Assembly: GCA_003243915.1 (NCBI GenBank)
Contig: QHCC01000173.1
Coordinates: 1-38,409 of the forward strand
DNA from: Pseudonocardiales bacterium
GTDB lineage: Bacteria > Actinomycetota > Actinomycetes > Mycobacteriales > Jatrophihabitantaceae
Length of the DNA stretch: 38,409 nt
Direction: 5' to 3'
Shown: piece by piece, positions 17,452 to 30,317 of the stretch
How the letters are laid out: every line of letters begins with the position of its first letter
How positions within the stretch are numbered: position 1 is the first letter of the stretch
Position numbers and translations under genes: made by a program
The notes under the pieces: generated by a model
Seen by the model: the letters and a program-made list of their open reading frames with translations, nothing else
What the model was told of the DNA's origin: nothing
The model's database searches: none

Positions 17452-18368
17452 TTCGAGCTCCCCATCATCTGATCTGCGCCGTCGGCGAGCAGGTCGGCAG
17501 CGAGCCGCCGCCCGACGCCGTCGGCATCTGTTGTCGCGCCAGTGGCCGAGAGTCGAACGGCGCAGCTGCCGTCGAGTGCGGTCACTGATCCACGAAGGAA
17601 CACTTCGAGTACGGCGTCGCCCTCGACCACCTCGGCCAGCGCGCCCACCGGGGCGGAACATCCTGCTTCCAGCGCCGCGAGCAACGCCCGCTCGGCGCTC
17701 ACGGCGGCGGCCGTGTCGACGTCGTTCAGCGCGGCGAGCACGGCGATCGTGTCGCCGTCGCCGGACCTGCACTCCACCGCGAGGGCACCCTGCGCGGGCG
17801 CCGGCAACACCTGGATTGGGTCGAGGACCTCGGTGACCTCGCCGCCGCGACCCAGGCGCCGCAACCCGGCATAGGCCAGCACCACCGCGTCGAGCTCGCC
17901 CGAGGACACCTTGCCCAGGCGGGTGTCGACGTTGCCGCGCAGGCCGACGATGTCCAGGCCTAGCCCGAGCGCCCGCAGCTGCGCGGCCCGGCGCGGCGAG
18001 CCGGTGCCGACGCGCGCGCCCGCCGGCAGCTCTCCGAGGCTCAGACCGTCTCGGGCGACCAAGGCGTCGCGCGGGTCCTCGCGCTGCGGCACCGCCGCGA
18101 TCATGACGCCCTCGGCGGCGGCCGTGGGCAGGTCCTTGTAGGAGTGCACGGCGACGTCGATCTGGCCGGCGAGAAGCGCGCTGCGCAGTGCCGAGACGAA
18201 GACACCGGTGCCGCCGATCTGGGTGAGTGCCGCACTCGAGCGGTCACCCTCGGTGACGATGTGGACGATCTGCGCGGGCGCGCCCAGCGCGGAGACGACC
18301 AGACCGGTCTGGGTCCGGGCCAGCGCGCTGCCCCGGGTGCCGACGCGCAGGGTGCGGGTGGCGGTCAT
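17448..18368 (-). CDS. hemC: Hydroxymethylbilane synthase (porphobilinogen deaminase)
   Basis: Protein of 306 residues from an ATG at 18368 that overlaps the hemA stop (ATGA). [15 protein letters not shown] is the N-terminal signature, VHSYKDLPT carries a substrate-binding motif, [13 protein letters not shown] and [13 protein letters not shown] carry the conserved arginines, and [10 protein letters not shown] carries the cysteine that holds the dipyrromethane cofactor. It polymerises four porphobilinogens to hydroxymethylbilane, the HemD substrate. Length and motif set are complete. Confidence 0.97.
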
Positions 18369-19651
18369 GACAGCGGCTTCTTCATAGCGGCAACCGACTC
18401 GACCGCGGCCTGGTCGAGGTCGAACAGCTCGCGCAGCGCGGCGGCGTAGCGGTCCCCGCCCGGCGTCGAGGCGAGCTCCTTGACCCGGACCGTGGGCGCG
18501 TGCAGCACCTTCTCGACGGCGCGGCGCACGGCGTCGGCCACCTCGCGGCGCATGTCGTCGGCCAGGCCCGGCAGGCGGGCGTCCAGGCGTGCGAGCTCAC
18601 CGTCGATCACCTGGTTGGCCCGCGCCCGCAGCGCCGTCACCGTGGGTGCCACGGCCAATTGCTGCTGCTCGGCGAGGTAGTCGTGCAGCTCGTCGGCGAC
18701 GATCGCCGTCGCCGCGCGCACGTCGTCGTCGCTGACCATCGCACCATTGGTGCGCAGCACGTCGAGGTCGACGTAGGTGATTCCCGGTCGGCTCCCCACG
18801 ATCGGGTCGACGTCGCGCGGCAGCGCCAGGTCGAGCACGACCAGGGCACGCGACGCGCGCGAGCCCACGGCGTCGGCTTCGACGACCAGGCCGGTGGCCC
18901 CGGTGGAGGCGATGAGGACGTCGGCCGCGGCGATCTCGTCAGGCAGCGCATCGAGCGCCACTGCGCGGCCACCGAGCGATCCGGCCAGCCGCTGTGCGCG
19001 CTCGGGGGACCGGTTCGCGACGACGACGTCGCTGAGCCCGCGCCGGCGCAGCGTCGCTCCCGCGAGCGCGCCCATCGATCCCGCCCCGACGATCACTGCG
19101 CGGCGCCCGTCGAGCGTGCCGAGAACGGCCGCGGCCTCGTCGAGTGCGACCGACACGATCGACGCACCGGCCCGGGAAATGCCGGTGTCCGAGTGCACTC
19201 GCTTGCCCACCCGCAGGGCGCTCTGGGCCAGCCCGTGCAGCACGCTGCCCACCGAGCCGACCTCGGTGCCCAGCAGGTAGGACGCACGAAGCTGGCCGAT
19301 GATCTGCGACTCACCCACCACCATCGAGTCCAGGCCGGACGCGACCGAGAACACGTGCTCGGCGGCCGCCTCCGCGAAGTGCACGTAGAGGTGGTCGGAC
19401 AGGTCGGGCACCGCCAGGCCCGCGTGCCGCGCCAGCACCGTGGTGATCTCGGCGACCGCAGGGTGGAAGCGGGCCACGTCGGCGTAGACCTCGACGCGGT
19501 TGCAGGTCGAGAGCAGCAGCACCTCGCTGATCGTCTCCGCCCGGTGCAGTTCGTCGAGCGTTTTGCGCAGGTCGTCGACCGGCACCACGGCGCGTTCGAG
19601 CACCGCCACCGGCGCCGTGCGGTGCGATAGGCCAACCACGAGCACGCTCAT
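18365..19651 (-). CDS. hemA: Glutamyl-tRNA reductase
   Basis: Protein of 428 residues from the ATG at 19651 ([19 protein letters not shown]), overlapping the rex stop (ATGA); the track extension is not part of the family. [10 protein letters not shown] holds the catalytic cysteine, [10 protein letters not shown] is the conserved catalytic-domain motif, [20 protein letters not shown] is the NADPH site, and the C-terminal dimerisation helix is present. It reduces glutamyl-tRNA to glutamate-1-semialdehyde, which HemL converts to 5-aminolevulinate. Direct coupling to rex means the first committed step of haem synthesis is made together with a redox-sensing repressor. Confidence 0.97.
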
Positions 19652-20415
19652 CGCGGCACCGCCTCGCTCGGCACTGCCGCGGCCTTGCGGTTCTCGTGGA
19701 AGGACAGGATCTGCAGCTCGGCCGCCAGATCGACCTTGCGCAGGTCGACGTGCGCCGGCACGGTCAGCACCACCGGTGCGAAGTTCAGGACGCTCGTGAC
19801 GCCGGCGGCGACGACCCGGTCGCACACCTCCTGCGCGACGGCGGCGGGCGTAGCCAGAACCGCGATCGCGATCTGCTGCTCGTCCACGATCCGATCGAGA
19901 TCAGCGATGTCCTGCACGATCAGGCCGCGGATCTCCGTGCCGATGCGGGCAGGATCGGCATCGACGAGTGCGGCGATGCGAAAGCCGCGGGTGGCGAAGC
20001 CCGCGTAGCCGGCCAGCGCCTGACCGAGGTTGCCGACGCCGATCAGTGCGACGGAGCGGTGCACGGTGAGCCCGAGCGTGCGGGCGATCTGCTCGGTGAG
20101 CGTCGTGACGTCGTAGCCGACGCCGCGGATGCCGTAGGAGCCGAGGAAGGAGAGATCCTTGCGCAGCTTGGCCGAATTCACGCCGGCCGCGATCGCCAGC
20201 TCCTCCGACGAAACCGTGCTGGTCGAGCCGTCGCCGAGGCCGCCGAGCACGCGCAGGTAGGTGGCCAACCGGGCGACGGTAGCGTCGGGCACCGCGCGAG
20301 CCGCCGCGATCCGCTCCTCGACCGGATCGCGACCGTCACGGCGCCCGCGCTCCACGGCGGACCCCGGCGGGTTGGCCCCGTTTCGCGCGGGTGGCGCGGG
20401 TGGCGCGGCGGACAT
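19648..20415 (-). CDS. rex: Redox-sensing transcriptional repressor Rex
   Basis: Protein of 255 residues from the ATG at 20415 with AGAGG about 6 nt upstream; the longer track ORF runs into the promoter. The winged-helix domain includes VARLATYLRVL, SSEELAIAAGVNSAKLRKDLSFLGSYGIRGVGYDV, the classic Rex DNA-reading helix. The Rossmann domain ALIGVGNLGQALAGYAGFATRGFRIAALVD binds NAD(H). Rex leaves DNA when NADH/NAD rises, derepressing respiratory genes. It leads the rex-hemA-hemC-hemD-hemB operon, as in Streptomyces (rex-hemACD, established knowledge), and a matching operator lies in its own promoter. Confidence 0.96.
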   Translation of the reverse strand: MSAAPPAPPARNGANPPGSAVERGRRDGRDPVEERIAAARAVPDATVARLATYLRVLGGLGDGSTSTVSSEELAIAAGVNSAKLRKDLSFLGSYGIRGVGYDVTTLTEQIARTLGLTVHRSVALIGVGNLGQALAGYAGFATRGFRIAALVDADPARIGTEIRGLIVQDIADLDRIVDEQQIAIAVLATPAAVAQEVCDRVVAAGVTSVLNFAPVVLTVPAHVDLRKVDLAAELQILSFHENRKAAAVPSEAVPR

Positions 20416-20507
20416 TGGACACCTCTGCGGGAGCGACACGGGCGAGCGCGCGGACCGGCTATCGGCGGCGCTCGGCCGGTGTGGTAGGAGCTGGCGGGAC
20501 GCAGCCA

Positions 20508-20537
20508 AAGCTACGCCGCTCGTGAATCTTTTCCCAA
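20508..20537 (-). promoter_or_regulatory. Candidate promoter of the rex-hem operon
   Basis: On the minus strand a -35-like TTGGGA (20537-20532) and a -10-like TAGCTT (20513-20508) are separated by 18 bp. This leaves a leader of roughly 90 nt before the rex ATG. The element overlaps the Rex operator, as expected for autorepression. Confidence 0.55.
20520..20537. promoter_or_regulatory. Candidate Rex operator (ROP)
   Basis: TCGTGAATCTTTTCCCAA matches the Rex consensus TTGTGAA-N4-TTCACAA at 12 of the 14 fixed positions, with the exact spacing. It covers the -35 and spacer of the proposed rex promoter, so Rex binding would block the operon when NADH is low. Confidence 0.75.
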
Positions 20538-20566: not shown

Positions 20567-20815
20567 TCAGCGATTGAGCGCCCTGCGCAACCGAGCCTCC
20601 TCGACGCGCCAATAGCCGTGTTCCTTGCCGTCGATCAGGATCACCGGCACGCGATCGGAGTACTCGGCGCGGCGGTCCTGCTCGGCGTCGACGTCGAGTT
20701 CCTCGTAGCCGAAGCCAAGCTCGCTCGAGAGCCGGCGAAGCAGAAGTTCGGCGTCGGCGCACAGGTGACAGCCGACCCGCGTGACGAGCGTCACACGATG
20801 CTCACGCGGCGCCAT
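20567..20815 (-). CDS. Glutaredoxin-like (DUF836) thioredoxin-fold protein
   Basis: Protein of 82 residues from an ATG at 20815. HRVTLVTRVGCHLCADAELLLRRLSSELGFGYEELDVD is a compact thioredoxin fold with CHLC at Cys16-Cys19, followed by the cis-proline segment RVPVILIDGKEHGYWRVEEARL. It is probably a cytoplasmic thiol-disulfide protein; its partner is unknown, though mycothiol is the main thiol of this organism, judging from mshA. From memory, the same small gene precedes rex/hemA in mycobacteria and Streptomyces. It overlaps the end of the ligase gene by 14 bp, so the two are likely co-expressed. Confidence 0.88.
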   Translation of the reverse strand: MAPREHRVTLVTRVGCHLCADAELLLRRLSSELGFGYEELDVDAEQDRRAEYSDRVPVILIDGKEHGYWRVEEARLRRALNR

Positions 20816-22277
20816 CAGCGCGCTCCGCCGCTCGAAGCTGCCACTTCATGACCTTGCCAGTGACGGTGCGCGGTAGCTCGGTGACGATCTCGATCTCGCG
20901 CGGCAGCTTGAAGCGGGCCAGTGAGCGGGCGGCCGCAGCCAGCAGCTTGTCGGGATCGAGCACGGCATGTGCCGCCGGCACCACGTAGGCGCGCACAGCC
21001 TCCCCGGAGCGCTGGTCCGCGACCCCGACTACCGCAACCTCGCCGACCCCCGGCTGGGCTGCGAGGACGGCCTCGACCTCGGCCGGATAGACGTTGAAGC
21101 CGTTGACGATGACGAGTTCCGTGCTGCGGCCGACGAGGTGCAGCTCGCCGTCGGCATCGGTGACCGCGATGTCACCCGTGCCGAACCAGCCGTCGGCGTC
21201 CGGACCGTCCGAGCCGTCTGGCCAGTAGCCGGAGAAGAGGTTCGCGCCGCGGACGAACAACCGGCCTGGGTCGTCGGGCCCGGTCCGCTCCCCGTCGGCG
21301 TCGCGCAGTTCGATCTGCACGCCGGGCAGCGCCACACCGATGGAGCCCGGCTTCGGCGGCCCGCTGCCGGGGCCGATCGCGTTGATCGTGACGACGGGCG
21401 CCGCCTCGGTGAGCCCGTAGCCATCGTGCAGGACGACACCCAGTTCGGCGAAGCCCTCGACCACCGCGTACGGCAGTGTCGCCGACCCGGACATCGCGAA
21501 GCGCACGGCTGCGAAGCCTGTGCCGACAGCGGGTTCCTGCAGCCACTGGACGTACTGCCCGGGTACGCCCAGCACTGCGCTGACCCGCTCGGCGGCCATC
21601 GTCGCGAGCGTGGCGGCGGCGTCGAAGCGGTCGGCCAGCACGACTGTCGCGCCGACGCGCAGCGCCATCCCTAGCCCCGCGTTCAACCCGAACACGTGGC
21701 ACAGGGGCAGCGGGACGAACAGCACATCGTCGGCGCGCAGCACAGCCGGCTCGACGGCGGCGAGCTGGTCGACGTTGGCGAGCAGGGCACCTGCCGAGAG
21801 CATCGCTGCCCTCGGGCGCCCGCTCGTGCCTGAGGTGTACAGCAGCACCGCCACCGCCGCGCCGACCCGATCGGCCGGTGGGTCCGCACCCTCCGGTGGG
21901 TCCGCGCCCTCCGGCGCCGCCGCGAGCACCTCTCGGGCCGTCTCAGGCGTGAGGTGCAGAGCGGCACCGCAGTCGCGCACGACGTAGTCGATCTCTGGCG
22001 GTGTGTAGGCAGGGTTAACTGGAACGGCGATCACACCTGCACGCAGCGCACCGAGGTAGAGCACCGTGAACGCAACGCCGGTGCCGAGCTCGAGCGCGAC
22101 CCGATCCCCAGGCTTCGCCCCGGCCCGGCGCAGCGCAGCGGCGGCACGGGTGACGGCTCTGTCGAGTTCGCCCCAGGACAGGCGGGTTTCCGAATCGACA
22201 ACCGCCGTCCGCGACGGGTCGTGGGCGGCATTGATGCTCACCAGCTGGGCCATCCCGAGAGCTCTGGGCCGGCCCAT
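20802..22277 (-). CDS. AMP-dependent acyl-CoA synthetase/ligase
   Basis: Protein of 491 residues from the ATG at 22277, chosen because GGAAGGG lies about 8 nt upstream; Met9 at 22253 is the alternative. The adenylation core is clear: VLLYTSGTSGRPRAAMLS (P-loop), FVPLPLCHVFGLN, HDGYGLTEAAPVV, GWFGTGDIAV, GRSTELVIVNGFNVYPAEVEAVL and the C-terminal lysine in PRTVTGKVMKWQL. It activates a carboxylic acid as an acyl-adenylate and, by family, transfers it to CoA; chain length is not predictable. Between residues 120 and 132 EGADPP is repeated in tandem (18-bp duplication), an unusual insert in a surface loop. It is divergent from the bldN-like gene. Confidence 0.92.
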   Translation of the reverse strand: MGRPRALGMAQLVSINAAHDPSRTAVVDSETRLSWGELDRAVTRAAAALRRAGAKPGDRVALELGTGVAFTVLYLGALRAGVIAVPVNPAYTPPEIDYVVRDCGAALHLTPETAREVLAAAPEGADPPEGADPPADRVGAAVAVLLYTSGTSGRPRAAMLSAGALLANVDQLAAVEPAVLRADDVLFVPLPLCHVFGLNAGLGMALRVGATVVLADRFDAAATLATMAAERVSAVLGVPGQYVQWLQEPAVGTGFAAVRFAMSGSATLPYAVVEGFAELGVVLHDGYGLTEAAPVVTINAIGPGSGPPKPGSIGVALPGVQIELRDADGERTGPDDPGRLFVRGANLFSGYWPDGSDGPDADGWFGTGDIAVTDADGELHLVGRSTELVIVNGFNVYPAEVEAVLAAQPGVGEVAVVGVADQRSGEAVRAYVVPAAHAVLDPDKLLAAAARSLARFKLPREIEIVTELPRTVTGKVMKWQLRAAERADGAA

Positions 22278-22427
22278 GACTGTCGCCCTTCCGATTGGCG
22301 AGACGCGCGCGCGGCCGTTCTCGTGGCGGTCTGTGACAGATTGGTGACCACCGAAGGCGTTCAGGCCACCTACCGGCGGGTAAGGTTAGCGCGTTCTTCA
22401 CACGCGCTGCCCGCCGCCGAAGGGTCC

Positions 22428-23249
22428 ATGCCGATGCCACGCGCAGATCAACCGTATCCGGGGTCGGCTGACTCCGGCTGCGGACTGCGCGCCCTGGCCA
22501 TTCTCATCAACGACGTACTGGCCGCTATGGGTACGCGGCCCGCGTTCGCACTGCCCGCACCGCTGCCGGGAGCAACCCGGATGGCCACCGAGATCACCAC
22601 CCCGGTCGGACGGGCCGGCCGCGGCCGCGCTCGCGCCGAAGCCAGTCACAGCGCATCACCCGGTGCGCCGCAGCCGGCCGAACCCGGCGTCGTCGAGGAG
22701 CAGCACGTCGAGACGTGGCGACTGGTGACCCTGGCGCAGGGCGGCGACGGCGAGGCCTTCGGCGAGCTCTACGACCGCTACGTCGACATCGTCTTCCGGT
22801 TCGTCTACTACCGCGTCAACGATCGCGCCATGGCCGAGGACTTCACGAGTGAGACGTTCTTGCGAGCTCTTCGGCGCATCAGCACCATCACCTACCAGGG
22901 CCGCGATATCGGCGCGTGGTTCATCACCATTGCCCGCAACATCGTGCTCGACCACGTGAAGTCCGCCCGGTACCGCCTCGAGATCACCACGGCCGACACC
23001 ATCGAGGGCCGCGACGCGGAGGCGGGTCCCGAGGCCGCCGTGATCGGGGCGCTGACGTCCGCGCGGCTGATGTCCGCGGTCAAGCAGCTCGGCGAGGAAC
23101 AACGCGATTGCGTGATGCTGCGTTTCATCCAGGGGTTCTCGGTGAGCGAGACAGCCTCCGTGATGGGAAAGAACGACGGCGCGATAAAGGCCTTGCAGCA
23201 TCGAGCAGTGCGCAAGCTCGCCGAAATCGTGGGCGAGGACCTGCGATGA
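22428..23249 (+). CDS. bldN: BldN-like ECF RNA polymerase sigma factor
   Basis: Protein of 273 residues from the ATG at 22428, with GAAGGG close upstream; a second ATG is at 22434. Sigma region 2 is AFGELYDRYVDIVFRFVYYRVNDRAMAEDFTSETFLRALRRI, with WQGRD-like YQGRDIGAWFITIARNIVLDHVKS after it, and region 4 is QRDCVMLRFIQGFSVSETASVMGKNDGAIKALQHRAVRKL. Both closely resemble Streptomyces sigma-BldN as I recall it. The roughly 100-residue N-terminal extension, unusual for an ECF factor, has LAILINDVLAAMGTRPAFALPAP near its start, comparable to the BldN pro-sequence. The next gene is an rsbN-like anti-sigma. In Streptomyces this factor drives aerial-hypha genes; its regulon here is unknown. Confidence 0.88.
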   Translation: MPMPRADQPYPGSADSGCGLRALAILINDVLAAMGTRPAFALPAPLPGATRMATEITTPVGRAGRGRARAEASHSASPGAPQPAEPGVVEEQHVETWRLVTLAQGGDGEAFGELYDRYVDIVFRFVYYRVNDRAMAEDFTSETFLRALRRISTITYQGRDIGAWFITIARNIVLDHVKSARYRLEITTADTIEGRDAEAGPEAAVIGALTSARLMSAVKQLGEEQRDCVMLRFIQGFSVSETASVMGKNDGAIKALQHRAVRKLAEIVGEDLR

Positions 23250-23266
23250 GCGCGCACTGGGCCTCA

Positions 23267-23294
23267 AGTATCGAAACCCCGGCCGTTTCGTTGA
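23267..23294 (+). promoter_or_regulatory. Possible sigma-BldN-dependent promoter of the rsbN-like gene
   Basis: A -10-like CGTTGA (23289-23294) is preceded after exactly 16 bp by AGTATC (23267-23272), against a recalled sigma-BldN consensus of CGTAAC-N16-CGTTGA (6/6 and 4/6 matches). It lies about 78 bp before the rsbN-like ATG. rsbN is a known sigma-BldN target in Streptomyces. The same TCGTTGATCC string also occurs in an intergenic repeat elsewhere in the window, which lowers confidence. Confidence 0.4.
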
Positions 23295-23372
23295 TCCGAG
23301 TGGGTCACGGCGGCGGGTGCAGCAGGTATCGGCAGGCCGTGGTCTGCGCGTGGGGTCTTATCCGGGTAGGGG

Positions 23373-24620
23373 ATGTCTGACATGGGCGAGCATCGGGTAT
23401 CGATGCTGGGTGCACCGCTACGCCGGTACGAGGATCCGGCTCGCTCCGCCGATCCCCGCATCCGCACGCTGATCACGCACCTCGCCGCGCTCGATCCGGC
23501 GCCGGGGCCGCGCGCCCACTTCCGCGCCGAGCTGCGCGCCCAGTTGGTGGCCGTGGCTCCGCGGCTCATCGCCGAGGGCACCGCCATCGAGACGCCTCGG
23601 GCCCGCACTGCGCCGGCCGCGCCCCAGCATGCCGTCGCGAAGCCCTCCGAGGCCAAGGTGCGTGCCGCGACAGGCTGGACCACCAGGATCACCGTCATGC
23701 GCCCCCTGGCGGCGATCACCGCGGTCATCGCGACCTTCGCCCTGCTTCTCGGTGGCGCGGTCCTGATCAGCAAGAAGGCGCTACCCGGTGACGCGCTCTA
23801 TGGGCTGAAGAGGGCGAATGAGAACGTCGCGTTGTCCCTGGCCGGCAGCGACGCCGACAAGGGCCGGAAGTACCTGAGCTTCGCCCAGACCCGAGCCGAC
23901 GAAGTCTCGGCACTGCTCTCGCGCTCGTCGGCGATGGCCGACGGTAGCGGATCGAGCGCAGCCGCAGGCGTCAACTCCCACACCGCCCAGCTCATCAATC
24001 GCACGCTCGATTCCGCGGACTCCGACGTCCGCAACGGCGCGCAACTGCTCAATGCTGACGCGGTGAGCACCGGCTCGGCCGACTCGCTGTCGATTCTGAC
24101 CAGCTGGGCGCCGGACCAGATCGCCCGCTTGCAGGCCATTGCCGCTCGGTTGGGGCCCGGTGCGCTGCACGACCGCGTGATGGCCTCGACCAACCTGACC
24201 TCCGCTGCCCTGTCGCGGGCGACGGCGCTGCACGCGGTGCTGGGTTGTCACTGCCCGAGCAAGATGACCACCGACGACCTCGGGCCGGTGCCGTGCGCCC
24301 TCTGCTCCGCCGTCCAGGTTCCCAAACAGTCGACGGCACCGCCCGGTCCGGGCCAGGCGCCGACCAACAAGAGCGGCGGCACGCAGCCGCATCCGAAGCA
24401 GCCCGGCGTCACCGCGCCGAGCACAGCGGTGCTGCCGACCGGCCCTGGTTCGACCTCGGTGCTGCCGGGGGGTGGCCCAACGATCGTCGTCAGCCCGCCG
24501 CCGATCACGCTCCCCCCACTGCCACTGCCCCTGCCCACGACCACCCCGCCGACATCGGGGGGAACGAGCGCCACCGCCGCCTGCAGGCTGGTCGTGCTGG
24601 GGGTCTGCATCGTCCGGTAA
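23373..24620 (+). CDS. rsbN: RsbN-like membrane anti-sigma factor (DUF5667)
   Basis: Protein of 415 residues from an ATG at 23373; a second ATG three codons on has a better-spaced GGGG. The cytoplasmic N-terminus ([37 protein letters not shown]) is the likely sigma-binding segment. A single membrane helix lies at about residues 110-132 ([23 protein letters not shown]), followed by [47 protein letters not shown], a DUF5667 extracytoplasmic domain. The tail is Pro/Thr-rich with a final Cys-containing hydrophobic stretch. The layout and position right after the bldN-like gene match Streptomyces RsbN, which holds sigma-BldN inactive at the membrane. Confidence 0.86.
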
Positions 24621-28242: not shown

Positions 28243-28330
28243 GGCAGCCAGGCTATCCAGCGCGACGCCGGGCGCGCGCCGCGGCAATGTGGCAGCAATT
28301 ACACCTTTCTCACATGTGTGAATTACTAGT

Positions 28331-28357
28331 AAAGTTGCGTTCCGAGTCGCCGGTCGC
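28331..28357 (+). promoter_or_regulatory. Possible WhiG/FliA-like promoter upstream of the surface-protein cassette
   Basis: TAAA (28331-28334), exactly 15 bp, then GCCGGTCG (28350-28357), compared with the WhiG consensus TAAA-N15-GCCGATAA: 4/4 and 5/8 matches. It lies about 75 bp before the proposed ATG at 28432, in an unusually AT-rich island. The weak -10 makes this only a candidate. Confidence 0.3.
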
Positions 28358-28431
28358 CCTTGTCGCTATTCCGGGTGATCTGCGGCTTGCGCGAAGAATC
28401 GGCTTCGCGCACTCGCCTTTGCCGGGGTCGA

Positions 28432-29430
28432 ATGGACGCACAACGACTGCCCGCCCGCGCGCGCTGGTACGGACCGTCGTCCGCCACCCGCAACGTGTCG
28501 GTGCCCAACGGTCTCGGCCCGGAACGAAGCGCCGGCCAGCACCGGGCGGCGCGCGCTCGGCAGCGGCTCGGCGCGGCCCGACGCGCAGCCGAGCCCGGCG
28601 GTGGCAGGCCTCAGGTGCTCCTGCTGACCGTGTTGACCGCTGCGTTGGCCGTCACCGCCGCCACCAGCCTCGTCCTCAGGCTCAACGCCCCGCGCCCGCC
28701 GCTCGGCGGTGCCGTGAGCGCGTCGACCCAGAAGCCGCCGCTCGTGCAGGCGGCCGAGCAGTGGCTGATGACGAATCTGCCGTACTCGGGCAAGGTCATC
28801 GCCGACGACGCGGTCCGCGCCGCCCTGATCGACTCGGGCTTCCCGCCGGCCTCGGTGACGCCGCCCGCCGGAGTGCTCGGCTGTGCCGCGGTCTCCTTCG
28901 TCGTGGTCACTGCGGCGCTCGAGGCGGCCGCGATCTCCGACGGAGCTCTGGGCCGGTGCCTGCACACCGCGCTGCCGATTGCCGTGTTCGGCACTGGAGC
29001 AACGGCGGTGCGGATCGCGCAGACCACACCGGGCGGCTCGCCGGCGCTGGCGGCCCAGCGGCGCCTGGACGCGCGCGACCGCATGGTGGCCGGCGTCGCC
29101 CTGGCCGGCAACCCGTCGGTGCGGGTCTCGGCGGGGGCACGGGCGCAGCTGAGGCTGGGCGGCCTGGACCTCCGTGCGGGCACCGTCATCGCCGTGCTCG
29201 CGGGCCACACGCTCGTACACATCACCGCCATCACCGGTGTCGCGGCAGAGCGGGCTGCCGGTCTGCCGGCTCGAACGGTCGAGCTGGCGCTCGCCGACCC
29301 GGCCGTGTTGCCGTCCGTGCTGGCCGGCTTGTCCGCACCGTTTCGGCCGAGCATGACCGTGCACACCGGTCCCCTTTCCGTTCGTCTCGTCTGGCCGTTC
29401 ACCACGGCCACCATCCCGGCTCTGCACTGA
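28432..29430 (+). CDS. Membrane-anchored extracytoplasmic protein of unknown function
   Basis: Protein of 332 residues from the ATG at 28432; the track ORF starts 24 codons earlier. A basic cytoplasmic N-terminus (about 60 residues, Arg/Ala-rich) precedes one membrane helix VLLLTVLTAALAVTAATSLVL. The outer part contains PLVQAAEQWLMTNLPYSGKVIADDAVRAALIDSGFP, which resembles the 'AxxWL..NLP..xxVLVDDxxxxDLV..G' stretch seen in some actinobacterial surface proteins and glycosyltransferase tails. The rest is alanine-rich with two Cys (LGCAAV, GRCLHT). I do not recognise an enzyme motif. It precedes a DUF4397 protein and a sortase in one apparent operon, so a cell-surface role is likely. Confidence 0.75.
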   Translation: MDAQRLPARARWYGPSSATRNVSVPNGLGPERSAGQHRAARARQRLGAARRAAEPGGGRPQVLLLTVLTAALAVTAATSLVLRLNAPRPPLGGAVSASTQKPPLVQAAEQWLMTNLPYSGKVIADDAVRAALIDSGFPPASVTPPAGVLGCAAVSFVVVTAALEAAAISDGALGRCLHTALPIAVFGTGATAVRIAQTTPGGSPALAAQRRLDARDRMVAGVALAGNPSVRVSAGARAQLRLGGLDLRAGTVIAVLAGHTLVHITAITGVAAERAAGLPARTVELALADPAVLPSVLAGLSAPFRPSMTVHTGPLSVRLVWPFTTATIPALH

Positions 29431-29447
29431 CCCACGAGGAGAATCGC

Positions 29448-30317
29448 ATGATCGCTCGAACGCTTCGCGGATCGCTGGGCGCAGCCGCCGTCGCTGGGCT
29501 GTTGCTGTCAGCGACGCCGGCCGTCTCAGCCCCGGCGGCCAGCGCAAGCACGCCCTACACACTGCTGCGCGGGGCACACTTCTCCCCCGACACTCCCGGC
29601 GTGGACGTCTACCTCACGGCGTTCTCCGGCGGCACAGCCACGCTGTGGCTCTCGAAGGTCGGCTACGGGGACGTCAGCGGTTACCACCGGGTGTCCCCGG
29701 GTCTGTACGCAGTCTCGATGCGCCCGCACGGCGCAGCGGCGTCGACGCCGGCGGCGCTGAGCTGGACCCTCACCGCCAGCCCGGGCCAGGCCTACACTGC
29801 TGCGGCCGTCGGCATGAACAAGCACCTGAAGGGCATCGTCCTTCGCGATGACCTGTCGCAGCCGCGCCATGGCAACGGCAGCGTCCGCGTCATCCAGGCA
29901 GCCAGCCAGGCGCCGCACGTCGACGTGACGGCGCAGGGTGGGCCGAGCATCGCGCGCGACACCGCCTTCGCCACCCAGACCGCATACGCCACCGTCCCAG
30001 CAGGCAGCTGGCCGATCGTCGCGCAGTCGGTGGAGAAGCCCGCGCTACAGGCTCGCGCCAATGTGTCGATATCCGCGGGCAGCATCCACACCGTTGTCGT
30101 GCTGGACGCGCCCAACGGCCGAATCGCCCTGCACACGTTGCTCGACGCAACCGGTCCGAGCACAGCGCCCGTCGGTGGGGTTCCAGCCGGCGGTGGCGCC
30201 GCAGCGGGTCGGGCGGTGGCGCCGAGCGTGTGGCTGGCGCTCGGCGTTGTCATCGCCGGCGCCCTCGTGGCGGGCACCGGGCTCGCGCTGCGCCTCGGTT
30301 CGCGGCGCCGCCGATGA
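29448..30317 (+). CDS. DUF4397 surface protein with C-terminal anchor, probable sortase substrate
   Basis: Protein of 289 residues from an ATG with GAGGAG about 6 nt upstream. It has a signal peptide (RTLRGSLGAAAVAGLLLSATPAVSAPA) and a DUF4397 domain (LLRGAHFSPDTPGVDVYLTAF, SGYHRVSPGLYAVSMRP, VRVIQAASQAPHVDV). A C-terminal PVGGVPAGGGAAA linker leads to a membrane helix (VWLALGVVIAGALVAGTGLAL) and the tail RRRR. That tripartite end looks like a cell-wall sorting signal, but there is no LPXTG; PxGGVxxGGG may be the recognised motif (inference). DUF4397 is a beta-sandwich domain of secreted proteins without a known reaction. Its stop overlaps the sortase start (ATGA). Confidence 0.88.
   Translation: MIARTLRGSLGAAAVAGLLLSATPAVSAPAASASTPYTLLRGAHFSPDTPGVDVYLTAFSGGTATLWLSKVGYGDVSGYHRVSPGLYAVSMRPHGAAASTPAALSWTLTASPGQAYTAAAVGMNKHLKGIVLRDDLSQPRHGNGSVRVIQAASQAPHVDVTAQGGPSIARDTAFATQTAYATVPAGSWPIVAQSVEKPALQARANVSISAGSIHTVVVLDAPNGRIALHTLLDATGPSTAPVGGVPAGGGAAAGRAVAPSVWLALGVVIAGALVAGTGLALRLGSRRRR

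Follow-up and report, generated by a model that had tools for sequence, protein, structure and literature searches.

A BldN-RsbN-type regulatory pair in Jatrophihabitantaceae, probably uncoupled from aerial-hypha genes

The stretch of DNA analysed here (the window, 38,409 nucleotides) is contig C173 of a Jatrophihabitantaceae genome bin that comprises 3.67 Mb in 228 contigs and is 82% complete. Its assignment to this family follows from relatives in a GTDB scan (Jatrophihabitans sp. FW021_bin.43 and bins labelled 'Pseudonocardiales') together with the sigma-factor tree described below. It encodes an extracytoplasmic function (ECF) sigma factor of the BldN type and, 123 nucleotides further on the same strand, a partner that resembles the anti-sigma factor RsbN. 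The pair and its regulatory DNA comprise the following features:

22428..23249, forward strand: bldN-type ECF sigma factor gene (273 residues), assigned by domain, structure match, tree and identity
22476..22523 (approximate), forward strand: N-terminal segment GLRALAILINDVLAA of the sigma factor, comparable to the Streptomycetaceae BldN stretch GLDLLRTLVRDQL
23373..24620, forward strand: rsbN-type anti-sigma factor gene (415 residues, with a Pro/Thr/Ser-rich tail)
23267..23294, forward strand: predicted sigma-BldN-type promoter of rsbN, AGTATC-N16-CGTTGA, found as a match to the literature consensus
22378..22405, forward strand: conserved element upstream of bldN, GGTANNNTTAGCGC then TCTTCACA, recognized by eye among close relatives

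The sigma factor carries an N-terminal extension (about residues 3-95) ahead of its sigma2 (about 99-181) and sigma4 (about 213-265) regions, and both core domains, Sigma70_r2 and Sigma70_r4, are present. Relatives share the second ATG of its reading frame, at 22434, which is probably the conserved start. Among NCBIfam models, TIGR02952 ('BldN family') is the best by far, at 176.6 bits against 98 bits for the runner-up. The closest entry in the PDB is BldN of Streptomyces venezuelae (6dxo_A, E 6e-53), with which the protein shares 94 of 147 residues (64%) across both core domains. A published survey recognized BldN by identity above 50% together with local synteny (PMC4255298), and the window sigma factor shows both. 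A quick maximum-likelihood tree places it among 53 BldN-like sequences, Streptomyces BldN included, and apart from SigL and from seven further ECF factors encoded in the same genome; the outgroup split in this tree has a support of 90, with long outgroup branches. The tree therefore supports membership of the BldN clade without proving the clade, and most of the weight for orthology lies on synteny and identity. The initial annotation had proposed a BldN-type factor and had asked whether phylogeny might place it elsewhere; its position with BldN-like sequences bears the proposal out.

The partner has the RsbN layout that had been predicted for it, with a short cytoplasmic part, a single membrane helix (about residues 109-132) and a DUF5667 domain from residue 136 that scores 34.7 bits against a cut-off of 27. 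RsbN of Peterkaempfera likewise carries DUF5667 above the cut-off after one membrane helix. At 94 of 108 loci a partner with a PGDxLY motif is encoded directly downstream of bldN; a profile search adds nine more. An hhalign comparison of a partner profile built from the family only with RsbN of Streptomycetaceae/Micromonosporaceae gives E 3.7e-38, the alignment starting at column 32. A single-sequence fold of the partner was poor, and adding eight relatives improved the AlphaFold model. The outer domain (residues 139-289) is all-helical and mostly confident, the membrane helix is also predicted, and two cytoplasmic helices (28-39 and 48-69) appear with low confidence, the class III anti-sigma domain having three. 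A Foldseek search with this model gave no match below E 0.001. The RsbN-BldN complex itself has been solved (PMC8103513). In the PDB sequence file, chain D of 6dxo matches RsbN but bears the molecule name BldN, and the two names are swapped likewise in PMC7406223.

The genes on the other side of bldN lie on the opposite strand:

18365..20508, reverse strand: hemA and rex, conserved neighbours
20802..22277, reverse strand: AMP-binding, acyl-CoA-ligase-like gene between rex and bldN, in the same place in most loci

The window thus confirms the rex-hem neighbourhood noted earlier, with Rex and HemA/C/D/B genes adjoining the pair. The common arrangement is hemD-hemC-hemA-rex on one strand, usually followed by the AMP-binding ligase, with bldN-rsbN on the other. 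The same order and orientation occur in Peterkaempfera (Streptomycetaceae), Micromonospora, Geodermatophilaceae and most Pseudonocardiaceae loci. The initial annotation had described the gene order as unlike that of Streptomyces; this has to be withdrawn, and an odd order for the module is ruled out, as the synteny is the same in Streptomycetaceae and other families. Horizontal transfer of the pair left no sign either, the family members grouping together in the tree with synteny retained.

Regulatory DNA at the locus offers a further point of comparison. The published sigma-BldN promoter consensus is CGTAAC-N16-CGTTGA (PMC2375139), and in S. venezuelae rsbN has a BldN-dependent promoter of its own (PMC4255298). 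We scanned the 220 nucleotides following the bldN stop codon at 101 loci for the best match with a spacer of 15-17, using a motif taken from the literature and not derived from the tested loci. A site with at most two mismatches was found at 94 of the 101 loci, whereas scanning the opposite strand gave 4 such loci and scanning shuffled sequence gave 2; the loci cover several families but are mutually related, so that these counts are not independent events. The -35 hexamer in close relatives is either AGTATC or the exact CGTAAC. We regard the conserved site as the strongest sign in the sequences that DNA recognition and feedback may have been retained. In two loci, from Kibdelosporangium banguiense (L072) and from a record labelled Rhodococcus rhodnii NRRL B-16535 (L089), rsbN is inverted, and a scan of their gaps found no BldN-type site. 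The BldN proteins of these two loci are sisters in the tree, and the Rhodococcus record may be mislabelled. The element upstream of bldN itself consists of a -10-like hexamer (TANNNT) and a conserved downstream stretch. It is a probable promoter/operator of bldN, the downstream part possibly being the operator.

The N-terminal extension of the sigma factor, about 95 residues long, contains a helix-like stretch, GLRALAxLINDVL, that is common to relatives. We made a profile of the extension from nine family members and scored it against shuffled sequences. On the Streptomycetaceae stretch and two Micromonosporaceae BldN proteins it beat nearly all shuffles (p 0.002-0.005); most BldN proteins of Geodermatophilaceae or Pseudonocardiaceae gave no such score. 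Because the profile scores the extensions of Streptomycetaceae and some Micromonosporaceae above nearly all shuffles, the earlier suggestion of a segment comparable to the Streptomyces BldN pro-sequence is upheld. The N-terminus may be one that is processed, as in the BldN proprotein.

In Streptomyces, the targets of BldN are rsbN, bldM, chaplins and rodlins (PMC4255298, PMC4125116). We looked for chaplins and bldM in a set of 24 Jatrophihabitantaceae genomes, the window genome and 23 others. Chaplins (PF03777) are found neither in the window genome nor in 21 of the 23 others; in the remaining two, PF03777 gives weak matches within long frames. No BldM orthologue was found in the family, the best match reaching 38% in the window genome and 45% at most in the family, whereas certain genomes from other families reach 47-58%. 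The BldM candidates in the family proved to be ordinary response regulators only. The sigma gene, by comparison, is conserved with an open frame, and matches were found in 21 of the 24 genomes. Members of the family are described as short, non-spore-forming rods (PMC13215011). The earlier question of what the regulon might be in an organism that may form no aerial hyphae is a real one.

Outside the locus, the firmer footprint of a regulon, compared with motif counts, lies ahead of a secreted lytic transglycosylase. All nine orthologues with usable upstream DNA, including that of the window genome (contig C223), are preceded by a BldN-type site with a spacer of 16, the sequence TCGTT and a similar distance to the catalytic core; seven sites have at most two mismatches and two have three. 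The best matches at paralogues vary in position and mostly carry 3-4 mismatches; one has 2, with a spacer of 17. An exact site lies upstream of the same kind of gene in a genome of another family (G036, L166). A pro-kumamolisin-type secreted protease is preceded by a site in two genera (L215 in the window's own genome and L221), and in the window genome a site also stands ahead of another secreted protein. Across genomes, orthologous secreted genes with sites include this protease pair, L217/L218 and L220/L225. A separate observation is an exact BldN-type site ahead of a conserved, non-secreted-looking protein (MAAELTPMSDDELAAEG...) in G022 and G017 (L151, L154).

A candidate small RNA may be a further target. 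In seven genomes, including that of the window, the motif lies 134-212 nucleotides past the stop of a yccA-like gene and points toward that gene, with up to two mismatches (one in the window genome). Next comes a hairpin whose apex is UCC-GUGGG-GGA, or close to it, and then a strong, terminator-like second hairpin. An eighth copy, in G002, lies away from the yccA-like gene, so that the element is present in 8 of the 24 family genomes. The loci are:

L250 (own genome, contig C9, at about locus position 2460, reverse strand): candidate RNA
L241, L246, L247, L251, L253, L243 and L308 (the G002 copy): candidate RNA

Z-scores for the first hairpin range from -2.0 to -4.1. A search of the window and the RNA loci against Rfam gave no credible match, and across the order (399 genomes) the few matches to the hairpin pattern looked at outside the family resemble chance. 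The alignment was too gappy for a covariance model. The second hairpin may be merely a shared terminator of neighbouring genes.

We think it probable that these genomes carry a conserved, autoregulated BldN-RsbN switch for envelope and secreted proteins that is uncoupled from aerial-hypha genes. The sequences themselves show that the sigma factor is orthologous to BldN, that its partner has the architecture of RsbN and matches it by profile, that the gene order is shared, that the rsbN promoter is conserved, that the motif precedes transglycosylase orthologues, and that chaplins and BldM are absent; from these we infer the binding of the pair, its signal, processing of the N-terminus, transcription from the sites and the overall role. 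The pair would have been inherited vertically within Jatrophihabitantaceae. RsbN, anchored in the membrane by its one helix, would hold BldN through the short cytoplasmic domain until a signal on the extracytoplasmic DUF5667 part, or proteolysis, set it free. Released BldN would then read CGTAWC-N16-CGTTGA promoters, and the one ahead of rsbN would provide negative feedback. Other predicted targets are the secreted lytic transglycosylase, the pro-kumamolisin-type protease, family-specific proteins with signal peptides and, in some genomes, the two-hairpin RNA, and not chaplins or bldM. Because the transglycosylase, the protease and signal-peptide proteins are the predicted targets, the switch would most likely govern how a cell without aerial hyphae remodels its envelope and secretes proteins.

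Several points weigh against this reading. The sigma factor scores below the curated TIGR02952 cut-off (176.6 against 206.45 bits), which is a naming threshold and not a biological property, and which is also missed by a syntenic Pseudonocardiaceae BldN (188.9 bits) and passed by Peterkaempfera BldN (258 bits). The -35 hexamer of the window's rsbN site differs from the consensus in two letters. Partners in Jatrophihabitantaceae show no evident counterpart of the first Streptomyces RsbN helix, and the family-only profile has no match to the solved RsbN chain 6dxo_D; a profile with rows from other families, Streptomycetaceae included, reaches that chain with E 1.8e-7. Because the family profile reaches RsbN from column 32 and 6dxo_D is reached only with added rows, the cytoplasmic part appears homologous to RsbN yet diverged, in agreement with the rapid divergence of RsbN noted before (PMC4255298). 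The host genome is only an incomplete bin. Genome-wide, a loose form of the motif, GTAWC-N16-CGTTG(A), is barely in excess (51 against 37 in controls), the stringent form considered below was picked after hits had been seen, and the same promoters could be read by another ECF factor.

The genome-wide scan proposed in the initial annotation gave little or no excess of the loose form and a clearer one of the stringent form. The 24 family genomes contain 22 copies of CGTAWC-N15-TCGTTGA and 6 of the reversed pattern (one-sided binomial about 0.002), the sites being partly non-independent as orthologous pairs. By a simple heuristic, a signal-peptide-type start follows 20-130 nucleotides downstream at 11 of the 22 sites; for random positions the share is 7.75%, and of 12 control strands one has such a start. 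As a positive control, a near-identical pattern recovers bldM in Peterkaempfera. These counts are suggestive only, given the partial non-independence of the sites and the post hoc choice of the stringent form.

One alternative is that the pair is a true, autoregulated BldN-RsbN system whose other sites are due to chance or belong to another ECF factor, the regulon being small or different, for example concerned with motility or stress. The small excess of the loose motif fits this, as do the 14 ECF-like matches in the window genome besides the window sigma factor; CGT-type -10 elements are common to many ECF factors. Arguing the other way, the footprint at transglycosylase orthologues is missing at most paralogues, orthologous secreted genes have sites in different genomes, and the stringent motif is in 4-fold excess. 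We therefore consider this alternative unlikely, and give about the same low weight to unnoticed differentiation, in which some members change form and BldN acts through surface proteins other than chaplins. Sites ahead of secreted, surface-like proteins recall the chaplins of Streptomyces, and motile zoospores are listed for two taxa in a comparison table of PMC13215011; counter to this, the family has no BldM. That the module is a functionless remnant of a lost aerial-hypha programme, retained by inertia, would agree with the missing chaplins in the window genome, the missing BldM and the short non-spore-forming rods described for the family (PMC13215011), but is very improbable given that 21 of 24 genomes keep an open, well-conserved sigma gene and that the rsbN promoter is retained across divergent genera.

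Elsewhere, the right half of the window contains genes for P5C reductase, proline dehydrogenase, a TIM barrel protein, Ppx/GppA, a histidine kinase, a histidine-phosphatase family protein and a glycosyltransferase, an order that we take to resemble that of Mycobacterium tuberculosis. An open reading frame of 676 residues with two DUF4397 stretches lies at 28287-30317 on the forward strand, overlapped by reading frames on the opposite strand.

The BldN-RsbN pair as such is known, though its host lineage is unexpected; what appears new, as judged from the sequences, is the predicted regulon. In a 2013 survey of about 100 genomes, convincing BldN proteins were confined to genera of complex morphology, and the factor was linked to the emergence of that complexity (PMC4255298). 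The switch can be set apart from aerial growth because the pair, its promoter and the genes around it persist in a family described as short, non-sporing rods, where bldM is lacking, as are chaplins in nearly every genome. Any inquiry into the role of BldN outside and before aerial hyphae can thus start from named genes, namely rsbN itself, the lytic transglycosylase, one secreted protease, a handful of surface proteins and the candidate small RNA. We tentatively raise the possibility, which we hold to be somewhat less probable than its converse, that BldN did not arise for aerial hyphae and had an older, autoregulated task in wall hydrolysis and secretion, with a small-RNA arm, to which Streptomyces later added chaplins and bldM.

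Compared with BldN/RsbN of S. venezuelae and S. coelicolor, the window pair shares 64% identity in the core, a comparable N-terminal stretch, the hem-rex neighbourhood, an adjacent membrane partner with DUF5667 and a sigma-BldN-type promoter ahead of rsbN. It differs in the AGTATC -35 hexamer, in the first cytoplasmic helix of RsbN, which is not evident, in a host family described as non-spore-forming short rods and in a genome lacking chaplin and bldM targets. Loci of Geodermatophilaceae, Pseudonocardiaceae and Micromonosporaceae have the same order, orientation, partner type and rsbN promoter, whereas most BldN proteins of the first two families lack the helix-like N-terminal stretch; several hosts in these three families have large genomes and mycelial growth. 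Mycobacterial SigL-type systems are alike in that a membrane-anchored protein encoded close by holds the ECF factor. Of the solved ECF factors, SigL ranks next after BldN, at a far lower similarity (E 8e-20 against 6e-53), and the partner class and promoter of SigL-type systems differ from those of BldN/RsbN.
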